IMG/VR virus record: IMGVR_UViG_3300033388_002168
Span: 1 to 37,392 of that record
Length of the DNA: 37,392 bases
Strand: one strand, 5' to 3'
DNA from: a virus
Shown: piece after piece, positions 168 to 24,133 of the stretch
Numbering within the stretch: position 1 is the first letter of the stretch
Layout of the letters: the number at the start of each line of letters is the position of its first letter
Made by a program: the position numbers and the translations under genes
The notes under the pieces: generated by a model
The model's input: only the letters and a program-made list of their open reading frames with translations
Database searches by the model: none
What the model was told of the DNA's origin: nothing

Positions 168-513
168 GCATACGCCGGAACCGTGGATGCTCCACAGAGA
201 CAACCATATGGGCCTCACCTATCCCATGGGCGAGGAGGTCAGCCACCGGATCATTTGGGGGGACGGGCGTGATGTGGCCTACCTTCCCCCACACTCTGAT
301 GGGGACAATGGAAACGCCAACGCTGCCCGCATCGTGGCTTGCGTCAATGCCTGCAAGGGGCTGAACCCTGATGCGATTCCCGAACTCCTGGAAGCGGCCA
401 AAACGCTCCTGGATAACCGGGTGCCCATCCCTGACAAGGGTGCTGACTACGCAGTACGGAGCCACGTTGCCGCACTCCGGGAAGCATGTAATGGGGTGGA
501 GGGTGCCGCATAA
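160..513 (+). CDS. Small phage early protein (ARIVACVNAC family)
   Basis: 117 residues. The core NAARIVACVNACKGLNPDAI followed by a helical segment (PELLEAAKTLLDN) is a pattern I recognise from many uncharacterised phage early proteins; no function has been established to my knowledge. The ATG at 160 overlaps the previous stop, and an upstream in-frame GTG at 139 would add only seven residues that look non-conserved, so ATG is preferred. The stop overlaps the next start as TAATG, so it sits in a tightly coupled operon. Confidence 0.7.
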   Translation: MPKHTPEPWMLHRDNHMGLTYPMGEEVSHRIIWGDGRDVAYLPPHSDGDNGNANAARIVACVNACKGLNPDAIPELLEAAKTLLDNRVPIPDKGADYAVRSHVAALREACNGVEGAA

Positions 514-9336: not shown

Positions 9337-9583
9337 CCCGAGATGCCACATCTGCCAGCGCGAGTGGCACAAATTCATGCCCATAAGGGTTGGTGGAACG
9401 CTCGTTAGGCTCGGTAAGCTCCCAGGGCTCAAGCTCCGCGTCACGGGCCGAATCAAGGGCTCCCCATATAAGCAGTACGCTGAGGTTGAGTGCTTCGACT
9501 GCGGGCACGTTTGGTGGAGCCGTCACAATCATTTGATCCGGTGGGCTAAGAAGGTTGACCAACAACTCCCCCTACCGTTATAG
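9320..9583 (+). CDS. Zinc-ribbon protein
   Basis: 87 residues from ATG 9320, which overlaps the HAD gene by 17 bases. Two cysteine pairs, CHIC at residues 9-12 and CFDC (about 60-63, in VECFDCGHVWWS), flank a basic beta segment, giving a four-Cys zinc ribbon. Likely nucleic-acid or protein binding. Its stop lies inside an inverted repeat and probable promoter for the recombinase. Confidence 0.65.
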   Translation: MPAPISPRCHICQREWHKFMPIRVGGTLVRLGKLPGLKLRVTGRIKGSPYKQYAEVECFDCGHVWWSRHNHLIRWAKKVDQQLPLPL

Positions 9584-9590
9584 TTATAAC
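9555..9590 (+). promoter_or_regulatory. Candidate sigma70 promoter overlapping an inverted repeat
   Basis: TTGACC at 9555-9560 and TATAGT at 9579-9584 are separated by 18 bases, a good sigma70 match. Transcription would begin near 9591, about 12 bases before the recombinase ATG, giving a nearly leaderless message. A perfect 6-base inverted repeat with a 2-base centre, GTTATA-GT-TATAAC (9577-9590), covers the -10 region and could be an operator or a recombinase binding site. Confidence 0.4.
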
Positions 9591-9602: not shown

Positions 9603-10781
9603 ATGGGAGCGGAAAAATTGGGGCCAAACGTCATCAAGGAAAAAATTCTCAGCGACACTAACCCGTTGCGTAGGGCCGTGTCCTACCTGAGCTACGCTGG
9701 CCTGGGAGCAGGTGAGATTTACAGGCTCGGGTGGGATGCGGTCAGGGCACAACCTCCAAAGTTACCAGGTACCACTGACAGTCGGGGCCTAACCTACGAC
9801 CAGGCCAAGGTCTTACTGTCCTCGGTGGGTCGTGGGAACAACCTCCGCGACCAGGTGATCGTGGAAATGGGGCTGGTCTGTGGACTGCGACAGATCGAGC
9901 TTCGCAGGATCCGCCTGGGTGACTTGCGGCCCCGCGAGGATCGCCTCTTCGTACTCGTCCAAGGGAAGGGGGGAACGAGGCGGGAAGTTTATGTTCCAAT
10001 GCCCCTCCGGGAACGGATCACCCGTCTTGCGGCTGGCGATGGTCGCCACCTAAAGCCGACCAAAAAGGTGCATAAGCGCCACGTCAGTCGCCCCCTCTTC
10101 CAGTCGGACACCGGAACCGCCCTATCCGCTAACGGGATGCGGTACATCATCAACCACTACCTCCCGGAAGCGTCCGGCAAGGCCACGCCCCATGATCTGA
10201 GGCATACCTGCGTGACCTGGCTCCTCAACACCGGGGCCACGTTGGAGCAGGCGATGGAGATTGTGGGCCACTCAGAGGCCAGCAGCCACGAGATTTATGC
10301 AGCGGTTGAGGACGGGTGGTTCGTCCAGTCGTGGCGGGACACCCACCCGATCGCCAAGTGGGGAGTCGGGGTCGGCTCCGTCCTGGTCGCCGGGAGGAAG
10401 TACGAGCGCCGGATGTCCAGGGGGACAGAGCGCGTTGTGCCCCTGCCGATGGACGTAGTAGAAGCGGTTCGCCTGGGGTTCCACGAGGGAGGGCTCCCGA
10501 GTGAGGTCATGACCCAGAAGATGCTCGCCTGGATCTACAAGGACTTGAGCTACAACCCCACGGTGCTTCGTCGGCAGGCGGCGATCCACATGGCCGAGAA
10601 CGGGGCCCACCCGTTCCTTATTTCAATGGTGTTGGGCATCACGCCGGACACCGTGATCGACAGCAACTTCGCTCGCAGGGGAAAGAAGGCAGAGGACGAG
10701 CGCGTGGGGGCCATCGACAAGGCGATCGGCAGGCTCTACTACGAGGACGAGGTCGTTGACTTGGAGATTAGGTCAGCCTAA
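9603..10781 (+). CDS. int: Tyrosine recombinase/integrase with degenerate second catalytic domain
   Basis: 392 residues. A short N-terminal region (1-60) precedes a catalytic domain with the full set R96 (CGLRQIEL), K122 (QGKGGTRR), H197xxR200 (PHDLRH), H223 (VGHSEASSHE) and Y232. Residues 255-360 then repeat the domain's layout: GTERVVPLPMDVVEAV mirrors TRREVYVPMPLRERI, and NPTVLRRQ with GAHPFLISMVLG mirrors TPHDLRHT with GATLEQAMEIVG, but His and Tyr are lost. It likely integrates or resolves the phage genome. In-frame TAA at 9600 excludes earlier starts. ATG 9603 lacks a ribosome site; TTG 9618 has GGGAG upstream. Confidence 0.85.
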   Translation: MGAEKLGPNVIKEKILSDTNPLRRAVSYLSYAGLGAGEIYRLGWDAVRAQPPKLPGTTDSRGLTYDQAKVLLSSVGRGNNLRDQVIVEMGLVCGLRQIELRRIRLGDLRPREDRLFVLVQGKGGTRREVYVPMPLRERITRLAAGDGRHLKPTKKVHKRHVSRPLFQSDTGTALSANGMRYIINHYLPEASGKATPHDLRHTCVTWLLNTGATLEQAMEIVGHSEASSHEIYAAVEDGWFVQSWRDTHPIAKWGVGVGSVLVAGRKYERRMSRGTERVVPLPMDVVEAVRLGFHEGGLPSEVMTQKMLAWIYKDLSYNPTVLRRQAAIHMAENGAHPFLISMVLGITPDTVIDSNFARRGKKAEDERVGAIDKAIGRLYYEDEVVDLEIRSA

Positions 10782-10825
10782 TATTCGTACAGCAGTCGGC
10801 CACCATCCCCTTCCCCCGCCGACTC

Positions 10826-10864
10826 GGCCCTGGCGTCCCCCCTGACGCTGGGGCCACTGTTTTT
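10826..10864 (+). terminator. Intrinsic terminator after the recombinase gene
   Basis: Arms 10826-10837 and 10844-10855 pair over 12 bases with two G-U wobbles, with a 6-base loop and a T run at 10860-10864. The orientation stops plus-strand transcription before the convergent minus-strand genes. A second inverted repeat (AGTCGGC at 10794-10800, GCCGACT at 10818-10824) lies just upstream without a T tract. Confidence 0.75.
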
Positions 10865-11099
10865 ACAGGCGTCGTTGCGCTGGGAGGACGTTACCGCTCC
10901 TGTCAGCGAAAATATCAAACACTGCCCGGTCCCCGTCGTCAGCGATCACCTCAACGTACCCGATAGTAACCCTATCCCCGTGGACCGTGGGGGCGGGGTG
11001 TCCTGGGGCGACAGTGAACGGTACAGCCCCCTCTAAGTTAGTCACTTGGACAAACGGGAGCGCCGTCAGGAGCTTCAGTAGTGTTCGTCGGTCCATCAT
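10863..11099 (-). CDS. Small exported protein with Tat-like signal
   Basis: 78 residues, the last gene of the minus-strand replication block. ATG 11099 overlaps the upstream stop as ATGA. The N-terminus MMDRRTLLKLLTALPFV has twin arginines followed by a hydrophobic stretch, close to the Tat pattern RRxxLK. The rest is a small beta-rich domain (YVEVIADDGDRAVFDIFAD). A role is not evident. The N-terminus could instead be a simple basic amphipathic helix. Confidence 0.55.
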   Translation of the reverse strand: MMDRRTLLKLLTALPFVQVTNLEGAVPFTVAPGHPAPTVHGDRVTIGYVEVIADDGDRAVFDIFADRSGNVLPAQRRL

Positions 11100-11608
11100 A
11101 ATTGAGATACGTACCCGTGGTGCGCCGCCCACAGCGCGTCAGCCATGTTGTCAGTGAGCTTCTTCCTTTGGTCCCATTGCCTAGCCTGACCGAAGCCGCT
11201 CCCACGGTGCCACCGCCAGGCCGCAGCCGACATGACGTGGAACTTCTTCGCCTTACCATGACCAGCGGCGTGTTTCTTGAGTGTGCCGATCGGCAGGCCG
11301 TAGTATGGGATACTCCTCCGCTCTAGTTCGTCCAGCAGGATCCCCTTCTGCCCTTCGATGTATGACACGCCCCGAGTGAAGCGGACAGACTCGTACACCA
11401 GTAGGTCCGGTTCCTCTTGATCCAGGAAGTCTCTGAGCCACGTCGCATAGGTGTGATAGATCATCCCAGCGCTTGCGTTCGCTAGGGCGTCGTTTCCAGC
11501 AGTCTCCTCACCGAACGAGACTATTGGGCGGGCGTCAATAGAGCTTTCGATCGTAGCCCAGCCCCACGTCTTGCCGAGGTCCTGCCCGACGACCTTGTAT
11601 AACTCCAT
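11096..11608 (-). CDS. RuvC-like Holliday junction resolvase
   Basis: 170 residues with an RNase H-like fold. Acidic metal ligands are visible: GQDLGKTWGWA near the start, LLVYESVRF in the middle, and TDNMADALWAA near the end. Such phage enzymes cut branched DNA made during replication and recombination before packaging. ATG 11608 is preferred because the first strand begins right after it; ATG 11632, inside the helicase gene, would add eight residues. It sits directly downstream of dnaB. Confidence 0.8.
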   Translation of the reverse strand: MELYKVVGQDLGKTWGWATIESSIDARPIVSFGEETAGNDALANASAGMIYHTYATWLRDFLDQEEPDLLVYESVRFTRGVSYIEGQKGILLDELERRSIPYYGLPIGTLKKHAAGHGKAKKFHVMSAAAWRWHRGSGFGQARQWDQRKKLTDNMADALWAAHHGYVSQL

Positions 11609-11612
11609 GGAC

Positions 11613-12947
11613 CTAGTCTCTGTGCATTTCATAGAACTTCATCGTCTTATCTCGAAAGGTCATGTTGATTACGCCAGTAGGGCCGTTCCGGTTCTTCGCC
11701 AAGTGAAGCTCAGTCTTGCCTTCCAGGTCGTTGCCGTCCCGATCTTGTTTCCCAAAGTAATATTCGGGGCGGTAGAGGAACATCACCACGTCCGCGTCCT
11801 GCTCAATGGACCCAGACTCACGTAGGTCCGACAGCATGGGGCGCTTGTCGGGTCGCTGCTCGGGGCCACGGTTCAACTGGCTCACCGCCAGCACGGGGAC
11901 GTTGAGTTCCCTAGCCAGTGCCTTGAGTCCCCTCGATACGTAGCCAATCTCCTCGTTCCTGTTGTCAGACCGTCGTGGGCTGTGCATCAACTGGAGGTAG
12001 TCAATCACCAAGAGCTTGAAGTCGTACTGGACCATGGCACGTCTCGCCTTGGCCCTCATCGCCAGTATGGAGGCTCCCGGTTCTGCGTCGATCACGACCT
12101 TGCTCTCAGCCATGAGCTTCATTTGCCGTGCGATCTGGAGAGTGTCGTCGCTACGCATCCTCGGAGATCGCAGTTCGTTCATGGGAATCCCGGTCTTCAG
12201 AGACATGATCCGGTGCCCGATGTCTTCCCGGCTCATTTCCAGAGAGAACAGTACGGCTGGCAATTCCAGCGTGGTCCCAACGAAGTCCAGGATGTTGGTG
12301 GCGAGGGCGGTCTTCCCCATGGACGGGCGGGCAGCAAGTATGGTAAGCTCGCCAGCGTGAAGGCCCCCTGTCATGTGGTCCAGTAACTTGAACCCGGACT
12401 CAACGCCGAAGATTTCCTTGCCGGAACTCCTCCGCGCCTCGATTCTCTCCACCAACTCGGGGAGGAACGACGTGAGTAGCTCTGGCTTGCCGGGAGTGAC
12501 GTTGTGGGCAATGTCGAAGATACTCTTCTCTGTCTTCTCCAGAATCTCATCAACCGGCGCACCGCCCTCCTCCTGGAGGTCCCTGATCGCAGTCTGACAG
12601 GCGTTACCAAGGGCGCGTCTCGCCGCAGCCTCCTTCACGAGCTTGCAGTGGTACCACACGCTGTCGCCAGTGGGCACACCGCCGATAAGGTCGGCCACGT
12701 AGGGAGCGCCACCAGCCTCCTCCAGCGCCCCCCTGGCCTGAAGCTCAGAGATCAGGCTTACGCCATCCACTGGGGCCGACTTCTCAAAGAGGCTCTGCAT
12801 AGCCTCAAACACGACGCGGTTTTGCCGCCACGCAAAGTCGGCTGGGGTGAGGAGTTCGATGGCCTCCGAGACGGGCTCGTCGCCCAAGAGCATTGCTCCC
12901 AGGACCGCGAACTCCGCCCTCTCGTTCCGACTAGACTCGTGAATCAC
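11613..12947 (-). CDS. dnaB: Replicative DNA helicase DnaB
   Basis: 444 residues, full length for the family. The N-terminal domain (1-150, RAEFAVLGAMLL) mediates hexamer and primase contacts. The RecA-like C-terminal domain has Walker A AARPSMGKTAL (K212), Walker B LLVIDYLQL (D316), and the sensor region QLNRGPEQRPDKRPMLSDLR with SGSIEQDADVVMFLYRP. It unwinds DNA 5' to 3' at the phage fork. Its start overlaps the end of the initiator-like gene by 17 bases. Confidence 0.95.
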   Translation of the reverse strand: MIHESSRNERAEFAVLGAMLLGDEPVSEAIELLTPADFAWRQNRVVFEAMQSLFEKSAPVDGVSLISELQARGALEEAGGAPYVADLIGGVPTGDSVWYHCKLVKEAAARRALGNACQTAIRDLQEEGGAPVDEILEKTEKSIFDIAHNVTPGKPELLTSFLPELVERIEARRSSGKEIFGVESGFKLLDHMTGGLHAGELTILAARPSMGKTALATNILDFVGTTLELPAVLFSLEMSREDIGHRIMSLKTGIPMNELRSPRMRSDDTLQIARQMKLMAESKVVIDAEPGASILAMRAKARRAMVQYDFKLLVIDYLQLMHSPRRSDNRNEEIGYVSRGLKALARELNVPVLAVSQLNRGPEQRPDKRPMLSDLRESGSIEQDADVVMFLYRPEYYFGKQDRDGNDLEGKTELHLAKNRNGPTGVINMTFRDKTMKFYEMHRD

Positions 12948-18548: not shown

Positions 18549-18866
18549 CTAATCCTTGTCTGTCTCGACCTTCACCTTAATCTCTGCGTAGGTCTTCGAC
18601 CCACCGGAGGCGGTCACTGTCACCTGTGCGATCAGCACGTCCCCTGGCTCCGCGTCGATGTCGTAGGCTAAGTCTAGTTCATACACCCCGTCCCCGATCT
18701 CGGACGCCTCCGTCGCAGCTACGATCGTCTCACCCAGTCTCACGATTGTCACACTGACCGTGGCCCCGGTGAGGTCCTGCCACACGTCACCCGCGTCCAG
18801 GTACGTGGCGGTCAGGACCAGGGTGCCGTCCGACTTGTACTTCAACGTCAATGGGTTAGCTGTCAT
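18549..18866 (-). CDS. Small beta-sandwich protein, probably structural
   Basis: 105 residues, overlapping the end of the repeat-fibre gene by 11 bases. The sequence alternates strands (GTLVLTATYLDAG, TVSVTIVRLGE, DVLIAQVTVTASGG), like an Ig-like or BppU-type domain found in tail and fibre modules. It lacks signal or membrane segments. It could be a fibre accessory or capping protein for the long fibre encoded upstream. Confidence 0.6.
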   Translation of the reverse strand: MTANPLTLKYKSDGTLVLTATYLDAGDVWQDLTGATVSVTIVRLGETIVAATEASEIGDGVYELDLAYDIDAEPGDVLIAQVTVTASGGSKTYAEIKVKVETDKD

Positions 18867-21444
18867 CGTCTTGGTCCCTTAGCTCGGTATCTAAATTTAG
18901 GTCGTGTTCTAACGACCCCTCAATATCTACGTCCAGATCATGCTCTACGGTAGCGTCCACGTCCAGGTCGTGCTTGATCGTGCCACCAACATCCACGTCC
19001 TGGTCGTGTTCGATTGTCACCGCCACTGACAGGTCATGCTTGATCGTGGCGTCTACGTCCAGCGGCCTCCCGAAGGATGGATCGTTGATCGCCGTACCCG
19101 TCACCGTGAGCGCTGGCAGCGCAAGCGCACCCGAGGCGTTTGATGGCGGAATAGACAGTTCTGCCGTCCCGCTCGCCGTGAGGGCGGGCAGGGTCAGGCT
19201 CGCGGTACCCCTGTTCTCTGCCTGGGCGGTACCGGAAGCCTGAAGCGCTGGCAGTGCCACAGAGCCCGTAGCGTTGAACTGCGGCCTTACGTTAGTGGCC
19301 GTTCCACTGGCCGTGATCGCTGGGAGCGTGACGCTGCCCGTCGCCTGGTACTCGGGCTTGATGAAAGTGGCCGTTCCGGAGGCGGTGATAGCGGGAAGCG
19401 TTATGCTTGCGGCTCCGTCGAACCCAGGCGGGGCGCTTGTCGCTGTGCCACTGGCGACAAGGGCGGGCAAGGACACTGCGGCAGTCCCGGAATGGATCGG
19501 TTTGGCAAATGTCGCAGTGCCCGTAGCTGTAAGCGCCGGGAGTACCGCAGTGCCGGTGCCCTTCGAGTGTGGGAACGTCGCCGTCCCGCTGACCGTCAAT
19601 GCTGGGAGCGTAAGGTTAAAGGCGCTCCCCACGTTGTCAGAGTCTACGTGGGTGGCGGTCCCGGACATCGTCAGCGCCGGGAGGTCTAGGCTGGCGGTGG
19701 CGTCGTTTGTGGAATGGGCCGCAACCCCAGCCATGGTCAAGGCCGGAAGCGTTAGGCTCGCCGTCGCCTGGAACTCAGGCTTGACAAAAGTGGCCGTCCC
19801 GGACGCCGTCAGTGCTGGGAGATCCAGGGCTGCGGTGGCTAGGTCTGGGTGCTGGGCTGTCGCCGTGAGCGTGAGTGCTGGCAGGGTTAGGCTGGCGGTG
19901 GCCTGGACCTCTGGCTTCACGAATGTTGCCGTACCACTGGCTGTCAGGGACGGCAGCGAGATAGTTGCGGAAGCGTTTCGGCCCTCACCCTCAGATACCG
20001 TGAGCTTCGGGACGACTACCGACGTAACAACGTCGCCATCCAGCCTCAGCCTAAACTTCCAGGTCTTCCCAGACGACGGGACCTCGGCCTTGACCGCAAA
20101 CTCAAGCTCAGTGTACCCAGGCCCCCCAGCTAGGTTGGTGGCCGGGTTGGACTCTTCGATGCGTCCGTCGTAGAAATCCCCAGAGGCCATGCCCCCCGGT
20201 GGCGTTAGCTGTGGAGTCGTTACGGCTCCGGTGCCTGGGATATACGTGGAGTCGAAGAACCGGATCGGATCTAGTTCCGTACTGGTCCCACTAGCCTGGA
20301 GTGGGGGCAGGGAAATGGACGCCGTAGCGTTGTGAACGGAGCCCACTGCATGGGTGGCCGTACCACTGGCTGTTAGGGCAGCGAGGTCCAGGGACGCCGT
20401 CGCATCGTGCTGGGGCCCTACGTGCGTAGCGGTGCCGGAAGCCTGGAGGGAGGGCAACGGGATCGTGCCGGTCGCAGTGACCTCTGGTGGTACGTGCGTT
20501 GCCGTACCTGTTGCCGTAATGGCTGGGAGCGTGGCCGACCCCGTACCCTGATACTCCGGCTTCACGAAGGTAGCTGTACCTACGGCAAGCAGGGCAGAAA
20601 GTGTCAGTGCCGCTACGGCGTTGAACGCTGGCTGGAACGTCGCTGTACCCGACGCCGCGAGCGCGGGGAGGTCCACCGACCCGGAGGCGTTGGACGGCGA
20701 TATGGCATGAGTCGCCGTGCCACTTGCCGTCAGGGCCGAGAGGTCTAAGGCGGCTGTCGCAGTGCGTTCTGCGATGGCATGAGTCGCCGTGCCTGCGGCG
20801 GTCAGGACAGGCAGGGTCAGCGCGGCGGCAGCTTGGAACTCGGGCTTGACGTGGGTTGCCGTACCGCTGGCGGTCAGCGCTGGCAGGGTCAGTGCCGCCG
20901 TGGCGTTTGAGTCAATGCTGGCTGCGATCGCCGTGATTCCCGGATACGTCCCTACCGCGTCCCGCGTACCAGTGCCGGGTACAACATCGAACTCAATGAA
21001 CTCATCGCCAGACAGGTCGGCGGACCGAAGCTCCACGCACCACTGATCTTCCCAGGAGGAACTCTTGGCATGTGCGGCACCAACTGAGCCGTCTACCTCA
21101 TCGTACTCACCGTCAGTCTCGAAGCCATAGGCTAAATAGGAACCAAGGATCTGCGTGTCGCATGGGTCGGCATCGGCAGGAAGGCCAGCGGCGATACGGG
21201 CGTTGGAGGAGGAGCCGTCTACGACGTTCCACGACCCACCATCCACCCGGTAGTATAGCTGGAGCGTGGAGTTGAGGTTGGCCCCACTATCATTGTAGCA
21301 CCCCGTCCGCACCATGAACGGCGTGTCGAGCGCAACACTCTCCGCGACCGACCCCTCAGCGCCGTTCGGTGTGCAGCCATCGCAATCGCTGGAGTTGTTG
21401 TCATAAAACCGATGGGTATGAAGACCAGTGTTTGGGGTTGCCAT
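18856..21444 (-). CDS. Long repeat-built tail fibre/adhesin (copy B)
   Basis: 862 residues. The N-terminal domain (1-178, LHTHRFYDNNSSDCDGC) is followed by about 22 units of a 22-25-residue repeat with core ATASLTLPALTASGTATF and linkers such as VKPEVQ, one ~100-residue insertion domain (SGKTWKFRLRLDG), and a C-terminal tail of HDLDVD-type short repeats. Each unit likely forms two strands of an elongated beta fibre. N-terminus, repeat and insertion are all shared with 21779-24133. Probably a receptor-binding fibre; it could instead be a virion surface decoration. Confidence 0.75.
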   Translation of the reverse strand: MATPNTGLHTHRFYDNNSSDCDGCTPNGAEGSVAESVALDTPFMVRTGCYNDSGANLNSTLQLYYRVDGGSWNVVDGSSSNARIAAGLPADADPCDTQILGSYLAYGFETDGEYDEVDGSVGAAHAKSSSWEDQWCVELRSADLSGDEFIEFDVVPGTGTRDAVGTYPGITAIAASIDSNATAALTLPALTASGTATHVKPEFQAAAALTLPVLTAAGTATHAIAERTATAALDLSALTASGTATHAISPSNASGSVDLPALAASGTATFQPAFNAVAALTLSALLAVGTATFVKPEYQGTGSATLPAITATGTATHVPPEVTATGTIPLPSLQASGTATHVGPQHDATASLDLAALTASGTATHAVGSVHNATASISLPPLQASGTSTELDPIRFFDSTYIPGTGAVTTPQLTPPGGMASGDFYDGRIEESNPATNLAGGPGYTELEFAVKAEVPSSGKTWKFRLRLDGDVVTSVVVPKLTVSEGEGRNASATISLPSLTASGTATFVKPEVQATASLTLPALTLTATAQHPDLATAALDLPALTASGTATFVKPEFQATASLTLPALTMAGVAAHSTNDATASLDLPALTMSGTATHVDSDNVGSAFNLTLPALTVSGTATFPHSKGTGTAVLPALTATGTATFAKPIHSGTAAVSLPALVASGTATSAPPGFDGAASITLPAITASGTATFIKPEYQATGSVTLPAITASGTATNVRPQFNATGSVALPALQASGTAQAENRGTASLTLPALTASGTAELSIPPSNASGALALPALTVTGTAINDPSFGRPLDVDATIKHDLSVAVTIEHDQDVDVGGTIKHDLDVDATVEHDLDVDIEGSLEHDLNLDTELRDQDDDS
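19090..20907 (-). repeat. Tandem ~66-75-base coding repeat array (fibre B)
   Basis: About 22 imperfect in-frame units, interrupted once at about 19980-20270 by a non-repeat domain. Codon-level similarity is high in the AxGTAT core and lower in the linkers. The array shares near-identical stretches with the array in 21998-23599, so unequal crossing-over within or between the two genes could change fibre length or swap units. Confidence 0.85.
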
Positions 21445-21779
21445 TATTTACCCCGCACTTCGAGAGTGGCCCTGACGACGATTTTCTTGAAAGGTTCGGT
21501 CGGCATGTCCCAGCCGAGGCGATGGCAGTCCAAGTCCTGCATACCGTAGGTCGTCTGGTCTACGAACCCAATCAGGTCATGCGCCGACCACCCTCCGCCC
21601 CGGTGATGTAGGTAATGATTCTCGTTCCACAGGACATCCTTTCCCGAAGCCCCAGGCTGGCTAATGCAGACCACGCGCTGGACCGGGGCCTCCCACGGGT
21701 GGCCGTCCTCAGAAGAAAAGGACGACTCGTCAGCGTACCAGAGCTTCCAGCGGTAGGTGGGTGTGACGAAGCCGCTCAT
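21444..21779 (-). CDS. Fibre companion protein (copy B)
   Basis: 111 residues from ATG 21779, which overlaps the stop of the preceding fibre as TAATG. It is a clear paralogue of 24135-24470: PTYRWKLWYADESSFSSEDG against PTYAWKLWYEDGTVFSSEEG, GFVDQ in both, and the same VRGK ending. It sits between two fibre genes, as does its paralogue, so a role in fibre assembly or tip attachment is likely. The family is common near phage fibres but uncharacterised. Confidence 0.7.
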   Translation of the reverse strand: MSGFVTPTYRWKLWYADESSFSSEDGHPWEAPVQRVVCISQPGASGKDVLWNENHYLHHRGGGWSAHDLIGFVDQTTYGMQDLDCHRLGWDMPTEPFKKIVVRATLEVRGK

Positions 21780-24133
21780 TAGGGTGGGCCCTCCACCTCG
21801 AACCAGTCCTCTGTGCCATCCTCGGCACATTCGAGGGTGTAGTCCCCAACTCCTGGGATCTGGACAATCACACGAATCCTCAGTTCGGTGCCCGCCTCAC
21901 AGGCATGGTTCACATCCTGAAGCTGGAGCCAGTCAGCGGTGATCTCATTTCCGTTGTCGTCTCTCCACCTAAATCCTTCAAGCTCGAAGGTGTCGAAGAT
22001 TGCGGTCCCGGTGGCCGTGACTGCGAAAAGCTGAAGCGTGGCGGTGGCGTTACTGGGCCACCTGGTCGCCGTGCCAGCCATTGTAAGCGCCGGAAGGTCC
22101 AGTGACGCGGTGGCCTGGACTTCGGGCTTGACAAAGGTTGCCGTACCGGAAGCCTGGAACGCCGGGAGGTCTACCGTACCACTGGCGGCGTACTCGGGCG
22201 GTGTGTGTGTTGCGGTCCCAGACGCAGTCAGCGCACCCAGGTCCAGGCTGGCCGAACCCTGAGAATGTGGGAACTCAGCCGTGCCCGCCGCCGTCAGTGC
22301 CGGAAGCGTAAGTGACGCGGTGGCTTGAACTTCCGGCTTCGTGAACGTCGCCGTAGCGGTCAGAGTCAGCGCACCGAGCGCCAGTGAGGCCGTGGCGTCG
22401 GACGGCGATATGGCGTGAGTGGCCGTGCCCGCAGCGGTTAGTGCTGGGAGGTCCAGCGAGGCCGTGGCGTCTGACGGCGACAGGATGTGAGTGGCCGTAC
22501 CGCTTGCCGTCAGCGCCGGGAGGTCCAGGGCTGCTGTGGCGTCTGACGGCGAGATCGCATGTGTCGCCGTGCCCGTGGCGGTCAGTGCCGGGAGGTCCAG
22601 GGTCGCGGTTGCCTGGAACTCGGGCTTCACGAAGGTTGCGGTTCCGGCAGCGGCCAGGGCTGGGAGTTGGAGTGCCGCAGTCGCTAGGTCTGGATGCTCA
22701 ACCGTCCCCGCAGCCTGCAAGGCTGGAAGCACCAGGGTCGCCGTAGCGGAGACTTCAGGCTTTACAAAAGTCGCTGTACCGCTCGCTGTAACAGGCGGCA
22801 ATACGATGGCGGCTTCGGCCTGGTCTGGGTGCTGGGCGCTCCCACTGGAAACCAGTGCGGGGAGGTTGAGTGATGCTGTGGCCTGAACTTCCGGCTTAAC
22901 GAAAGTCCCAGTGGCGGCTACCTGTAAGGTTGGGAGCGTGAGCGCCGCTGTGGCCTGAACTTCCGGCTTAACAAAGGTCGCGGTACCCGATGCCTCCAGT
23001 GCGGGAAGCGCCAACGCAGCAGTAGCGTTCGAGTCGATCCCCGCTGAGACAGTCAGCTTGGGCGTAACGTCAAGCGTTAATGGTGTGCCGGTCCGAGACA
23101 GCCTGAACTTCCACGTCTTACCACTGGCAGGCGATCTCGCTACAAGCGACCACTCCAACTCGGTCCAGCCGGTAGCATTGGCAGCAACCGAATCGGCTGG
23201 GTTCTCATCGTCCTGGATCCGACCAGTAGAGAAGGCGTCGGCACCCGCAGGACCAGTCAGTTGTTCGGTGGTATCCTCTCCCCCAGCCGAAATGTACGAC
23301 GAATCGGAGAGTTCGATCGGGTCAAGGACTGTCGCCGTGCCGGAGGCTGTGAGGGCGGGCAACGCGAGGGACGCGGTGGCATCATGGTCGGGCTTAACAA
23401 ACGTCGCGGTCCCAGCAGCCAAGAGGGCGGCGAGTACGAGTGTTGCAGTCGCGTTGTGGGGCGGGCCTGTATGGGTCGCCGTTCCAGCCGCCGTCAGGGC
23501 TGGGAGCGTGAGTGTGGCCGTGGCGTCGTGATCGGGTGGAACATGGGTCGCCGTTCCAGCCGCCGTCAGGGCCGGAAGGACCAACGCGGCAGTGGCGTTA
23601 CGGGCGTCGGCGGAGACGTTGACTTCAATCTGGGCGTACAGGCCATAGGTGAAGGCCGCTCCAGCCACCCGGAGGTAAACGGCATCCGCGTCCGTGAGGT
23701 CCGCACCCCTGAGTTGGACGCACCACTGATGTTCTACATAATCGTCCTTCGTGTGGGAGTAGTTTGCCAGCGCACCATCTACTTCATCGTACTCCCCGTT
23801 TATAAAGGAACCGACGCCACCTGAATCAAGAAGCTGCGTGTTGCAGGCCGCGCCATCAGCAGGAGTCCCCGCCGCACTCCTGACATTAGAGGAGGAGCCA
23901 TCTACGGCATACCAAGTGCCACCAGTGCCATTGATCTGGTATTCTAGGTAGAGGTCAACGGCGAGGGTCTTGTTGGCGGTTTCGTCCGCTCCAATCCGGA
24001 CCATGAGGTTCGTGTCGGCGTCCCAAACCTCGGCTACACTGTTGTCTGCACCAATTTGGGTACAGGCGTCGGGGTCCGAGTTGTCGTCCTGGAAAAACCC
24101 GTGGGTGTGCTGGTTGAGGGAAAAGGTAGTCAT
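21779..24133 (-). CDS. Long repeat-built tail fibre/adhesin (copy A)
   Basis: 784 residues. The N-terminal domain (1-178, QHTHGFFQDDNSDPDAC) is homologous to that of the other fibre. About 19 units of the ATASLTLPALTASGTATF repeat follow, with a ~100-residue insertion (SGKTWKFRLSRTG) after unit four. The C-terminal domain (EGFRWRDDNGNEITADW ... CAEDGTEDWFEV) is shared with the LamG protein upstream rather than with the other fibre. This mosaic suggests a receptor-binding fibre shaped by domain swapping. Confidence 0.75.
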   Translation of the reverse strand: MTTFSLNQHTHGFFQDDNSDPDACTQIGADNSVAEVWDADTNLMVRIGADETANKTLAVDLYLEYQINGTGGTWYAVDGSSSNVRSAAGTPADGAACNTQLLDSGGVGSFINGEYDEVDGALANYSHTKDDYVEHQWCVQLRGADLTDADAVYLRVAGAAFTYGLYAQIEVNVSADARNATAALVLPALTAAGTATHVPPDHDATATLTLPALTAAGTATHTGPPHNATATLVLAALLAAGTATFVKPDHDATASLALPALTASGTATVLDPIELSDSSYISAGGEDTTEQLTGPAGADAFSTGRIQDDENPADSVAANATGWTELEWSLVARSPASGKTWKFRLSRTGTPLTLDVTPKLTVSAGIDSNATAALALPALEASGTATFVKPEVQATAALTLPTLQVAATGTFVKPEVQATASLNLPALVSSGSAQHPDQAEAAIVLPPVTASGTATFVKPEVSATATLVLPALQAAGTVEHPDLATAALQLPALAAAGTATFVKPEFQATATLDLPALTATGTATHAISPSDATAALDLPALTASGTATHILSPSDATASLDLPALTAAGTATHAISPSDATASLALGALTLTATATFTKPEVQATASLTLPALTAAGTAEFPHSQGSASLDLGALTASGTATHTPPEYAASGTVDLPAFQASGTATFVKPEVQATASLDLPALTMAGTATRWPSNATATLQLFAVTATGTAIFDTFELEGFRWRDDNGNEITADWLQLQDVNHACEAGTELRIRVIVQIPGVGDYTLECAEDGTEDWFEVEGPP
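21998..23599 (-). repeat. Tandem ~66-75-base coding repeat array (fibre A)
   Basis: About 19 imperfect in-frame units interrupted by one non-repeat domain (about 23030-23330). Three consecutive units near 22395-22600 are almost alike in protein (AISPS/ILSPS linkers), suggesting recent local duplication. Extensive similarity to the array at 19090-20907. Confidence 0.85.

Follow-up and report, generated by a model that had tools for sequence, protein, structure and literature searches.

The window analysed here (that is, the whole 37,392-nucleotide stretch of the IMG/VR virus record IMGVR_UViG_3300033388_002168) contains a tyrosine recombinase gene whose product runs on for 160 residues beyond its active-site Tyr232, which raises the question of what this extra stretch is and where it came from. 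A preliminary description had taken it for a decayed tandem copy of the protein's own catalytic (CAT) domain. On the basis of profile comparisons, the chain appears to hold two related recombinase domains, an intact one inside a dead one, with the following parts:

9603–10781, plus strand: whole recombinase gene (392 aa, with stop codon; three full-length homologues, L002, L014 and L020)
9603–9752, plus strand: predicted N-terminal piece of a split degenerate CAT domain, residues 1–50 (hhalign to box I; best single match L041)
9753–10361, plus strand: complete CAT domain forming the insert, together with a linker and an XerC-like C-terminus, residues 51–253 (PF00589, aligned catalytic residues)
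10296–10298, plus strand: codon of the catalytic Tyr232 (alignment with other recombinases and with the family)
10362–10778, plus strand: predicted C-terminal piece of the split degenerate CAT domain, residues 254–392 (hhalign 89.6%; 96.8% when joined with residues 1–50)

With regard to the gene start, an in-frame TTG at 9618, located 3' of a GGGAG-like ribosome site, may be the true one; the homologue L014 begins at the matching ATG, 3' of AGGGGAG.

The inner domain is readily recognized by Pfam, in which PF00589 covers residues 63–236 (E=1.8e-24, 86.9 bits versus a cut-off of 27.1). Its catalytic set, R96, K122, H197, R200, H223 and Y232, aligns with the Arg, Lys, His, Arg, His/Trp and Tyr of other recombinases, and all six residues are invariant in four out of four phages. 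The complete CAT domain extends over about residues 60–251 (51–253 with the linker and C-terminus), and its end, WRDTHPIA, aligns with the XerC C-terminus YRQFHPRA. Judged by these motifs, the XerC-like inner domain is probably active. No core-binding domain was found in the protein; the ∼50 residues before the CAT linker align to CAT box I instead.

We then consider the tail (residues 254–392). When it was searched alone, PF00589 was the sole Pfam family at E⩽10, with E-values of 0.057–0.071 that lie below the curated Pfam cut-off and a match confined to profile positions 127–155. Comparison of a four-sequence tail profile with a general CAT profile, which was built from 39 diverse recombinases with the family of the 392-aa protein left out, gave an hhalign probability of 89.6% and a score of 39.8 over 80 columns, and none of 400 column shuffles reached the real score (maximum 25.2). 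Similarly, hmmsearch with the family-excluded CAT profile placed all four tails above 2,000 shuffled tails. In that search, some tails were in turn exceeded by two decoy ORFs; both lie on the opposite strand at recombinase locus L032 and, according to their coordinates, may be antisense to the recombinase gene there. Because the profile comparison beats the shuffle controls, the resemblance of the tail to CAT domains is confirmed, and at the level of sequence profiles the tail is related to the C-terminal two-thirds of a CAT domain. The preliminary description was thus right that a decayed, inactive catalytic-domain segment is fused C-terminally to the active domain, and the substitutions that it had listed, loss of His and Tyr with Arg kept, were borne out by the four-phage alignment: His is replaced by Thr/Ser and the second His (His III) by Ile/Val, Arg II is kept as R323, and Phe356 lies at or adjoining the Tyr position. 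In other collections, the tail had no match in NCBIfam and one in PHROGs (E 0.14), and a genome-collection scan with it found no relative. The sole PDB match of the tail profile was Ocr (E 0.6), which was taken as chance.

The first third of a CAT domain, that is, the helices around Arg I, is absent from the tail and sits at about residues 3–50, a partner piece that the preliminary description had overlooked. The box I-like stretch comprises residues 19–47, TNPLRRAVSYLSYAGLGAGEIYRLGWDAV, in which Gly35 stands in for Arg I. When the target profile held both the core-binding region and the CAT domain, the N-terminal piece was still aligned to box I (hhalign, 0/200 shuffles). Its best single match was RNPLRNRVIVLLSAKAGLRAGEIAALTWDMV of L041, which reached 17.8 bits, whereas shuffles did not exceed 3.7; for most other single recombinases, no usable score was obtained. 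When joined in order, residues 1–50 and 255–392 aligned as one continuous CAT domain with a probability of 96.8%, a score of 63.8 and an E-value of 2e-10, it being noted that hhalign E-values apply to single comparisons and that the profiles were made in this analysis. The score was 39.7 with the piece order reversed and likewise 39.7 for the tail without the N-terminal piece. Shuffling of the N-terminal piece alone gave at most 51.9 (n=300), shuffling of the whole composite at most 21.5 (n=300), and 30 control windows taken from the remaining proteins of the phages did not exceed 21.3. The junction of the composite was chosen by us, and two nearby junctions scored 56.3 and 57.9 to 60.9. In Pfam scans of the joined pieces, all of which stay under the curated cut-off, PF00589 was matched with a stretch across the junction in L014 (E 0.0012) and L020 (E 0.16) and with the best stretch in the tail in the window protein (E 0.012), whereas no Pfam family was matched by the L002 composite. 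Single-sequence matches of the outer pieces were weak.

These comparisons bear on two other readings. In the first, the N-terminal ∼50 residues would represent a core-binding domain that has been shortened, which would leave the tail as the sole degenerate CAT fragment, appended to an ordinary CAT domain. When ordinary recombinases are aligned by BLAST, the alignments do extend into the core-binding region, though with gaps and low identity, and residues ∼47–60 resemble the linker between core-binding and CAT domains. However, the N-terminal piece picks CAT box I when both regions are offered, no single sequence matches it better than box I of L041, and ordered joining lifts the tail score from 39.7 to 63.8, above all 300 shuffles of the N-terminal piece, so that we regard this reading as improbable. 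The second, that residues 250–392 form an unrelated fold and resemble a CAT domain by chance, could draw on the weak individual HMM scores of the tail, but the shuffle and real-protein controls speak otherwise and make it extremely improbable. It seems, from the profile evidence, that an intact CAT domain is nested in a split degenerate CAT domain. The outer domain lacks Arg I, the beta-hairpin Lys, His II, His III and Tyr and retains Arg II, and the insertion point within it would lie between helix C and the beta-sheet.

Structure prediction was also performed. The AlphaFold model from 2 sequences (pLDDT 44.5) was too poor for use. The model from 18 sequences reached a pLDDT of 68, with the core modelled well and the tail weakly (about 40–77); in this model, predicted elements lie in CAT order on either side of the insert, with low confidence in the tail. 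Fold searches were filled by inner-domain matches and were uninformative on the tail.

The origin of the outer domain was examined by comparing it with the protein's own core. Against the own core, the composite scored 17.9 and the tail 14.8, whereas the general recombinase profile gave 63.8 and 39.7, respectively; among 41 single targets, the own cores came 13th and 31st. These ranks and scores indicate that the outer domain came from another recombinase lineage or, alternatively, that it diverged long ago. The tandem duplication put forward in the preliminary description, with the second copy decayed, now appears very unlikely: a degenerate CAT segment does follow the active one, as had been described, but the tail is no closer to the own core than to other recombinases, and the first third of the outer domain precedes the active domain, at about residues 3–50, rather than following it. 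Membership of the outer domain in the Caulobacter phage phiCbK-type group of small recombinases without a core-binding domain (L041, L073–L083) was considered and rejected. The N-terminal piece is most like the box I of these proteins and fits this group better, whereas for the tail the general recombinase profile is the better fit. The phiCbK-type recombinases are single intact domains of about 190–260 residues.

The full architecture was identified in three IMG/VR phage contigs, L002 (71% identical), L014 (72%) and L020 (64%), so that the known family consists of four members, the window protein included. Other searches, at the sensitivity that they reached, added no member to the family: a genome-collection scan with the family gave matches solely around the catalytic motif of other recombinases, and no match over 80% of the protein was found in phage and plasmid collections. 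Among the computable pairs (some were saturated and gave no value), dN/dS was about 0.14–0.18 for the N-terminal piece, 0.15–0.32 for the core and 0.09–0.31 for the tail. The values are similarly low in the three segments, and thus the dead pieces are under purifying selection, like the live domain. Since the dead domain is kept in related phages, it probably does useful work other than cutting.

The control elements around the gene are as follows:

9555–9584, plus strand: sigma-70-like promoter, TTGACC-18-TATAGT (10/12 consensus positions)
9577–9590, no strand assigned: operator-like dyad GTTATA-GT-TATAAC over the -10 box (sole match in the window)
10826–10855, plus strand: intrinsic-terminator-like hairpin 3' of the gene (12-pair stem and T run; stretch conserved in four phages)

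Sequence similar to the promoter occurs upstream of all three homologues. Upstream of the gene, G001 carries the dyad unchanged and G003 carries it with one mismatch; in L014 the sequence differs but keeps its dyad symmetry. Such an arrangement raises the possibility that the outer domain is an autorepressor, that is, a dead recombinase domain that would bind the dyad at its own promoter and limit expression. A precedent exists in MrpR (YopR) of phage SPbeta, a recombinase-fold repressor that is devoid of recombinase activity and works by DNA binding (PMC10516654), and the dyad over the -10 box is conserved. On the other hand, a dyad this short might be the target of a different regulator, and its sequence has changed in L014; we consider this role unlikely, if less so than the shortened core-binding domain discussed above.

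Several other elements were observed in the neighbourhood. An inverted repeat, AGTCGGC-N17-GCCGACT, is located 3' of the gene at 10794–10824. All four phages have it, the spacer varying from about 14 to 21 bases; it could form a hairpin in RNA or belong to a recombination site. The next gene (11096–11632, minus strand) encodes a product whose motifs resemble RuvC-like resolvases by eye and which has no Pfam match. Its homologues, as well as DnaB, are present in all three related contigs, and in L014 and L017 they adjoin the recombinase gene on the other strand, with DnaB then following in L017. Further away on the minus strand, 13386–14627 matches PF18897 (E=1.2e-27) and is similar to recombination directionality factors (Gp3-like), and 18856–24133 encodes two large proteins of 862 and 784 aa that consist mostly of short repeats such as ATASLTLPALTASGTATHV. 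The sole tRNA in the window is a tRNA-Gln with anticodon TTG (346–437, minus strand).

Taken as a whole, the protein would probably be a phage tyrosine recombinase in which an active-type CAT domain lies inside a dead outer CAT domain that serves as its DNA-binding or assembly partner, a reading that we favour with some reserve. The inner domain would most likely be the part that cuts and rejoins DNA, whether for integration, for excision or for a reaction of a related kind. The outer pieces, about residues 3–50 and 254–392, would fold together from the two ends of the chain into one module. Because no core-binding domain was found, we infer that this module takes its place, acting in DNA binding or assembly and helping the active domain to hold or pair sites. 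The preliminary description had put forward that a fused inactive partner could dictate synapse asymmetry. A further proposal concerns a synapse of two chains, which would contain four CAT units, two of them able to cut, and would perform a single strand exchange or follow a fixed order, with the junction resolved otherwise; such a mechanism is rather doubtful.

In comparison with known systems, the inner domain shares the CAT fold, the catalytic residues and the C-terminal helix ending with simple tyrosine recombinases of the XerC/XerD/XerA type. However, each of those proteins combines one CAT domain with a core-binding domain, whereas the window protein yielded no core-binding domain and its inner CAT domain seems to be enclosed by a second, split one. 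MrpR resembles the proposed outer domain in having a recombinase fold without recombinase function, but it forms a protein of its own, in which a CAT domain accompanies a core-binding domain, and is not split around an active domain. According to the portion of a tyrosine recombinase survey considered here, CAT insertions change function in integron integrases and the Tn916 group (PMC8138268). These insertions likewise lie in the CAT fold, but are described in that portion as short strands or helices and not as a second CAT domain, and a term search of the survey text found neither 'duplicat' nor 'inactive' (PMC8138268). A tyrosine recombinase with a nested layout was not described in the literature that we searched. 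If the dead outer domain replaces the core-binding domain or a neighbouring protomer, the protein would be a natural single-chain pairing of a live and a dead recombinase. It is unusual for a domain to be inserted into another that is homologous to it. Such a pairing, if true, would bear on how recombinases control which strands get cut.
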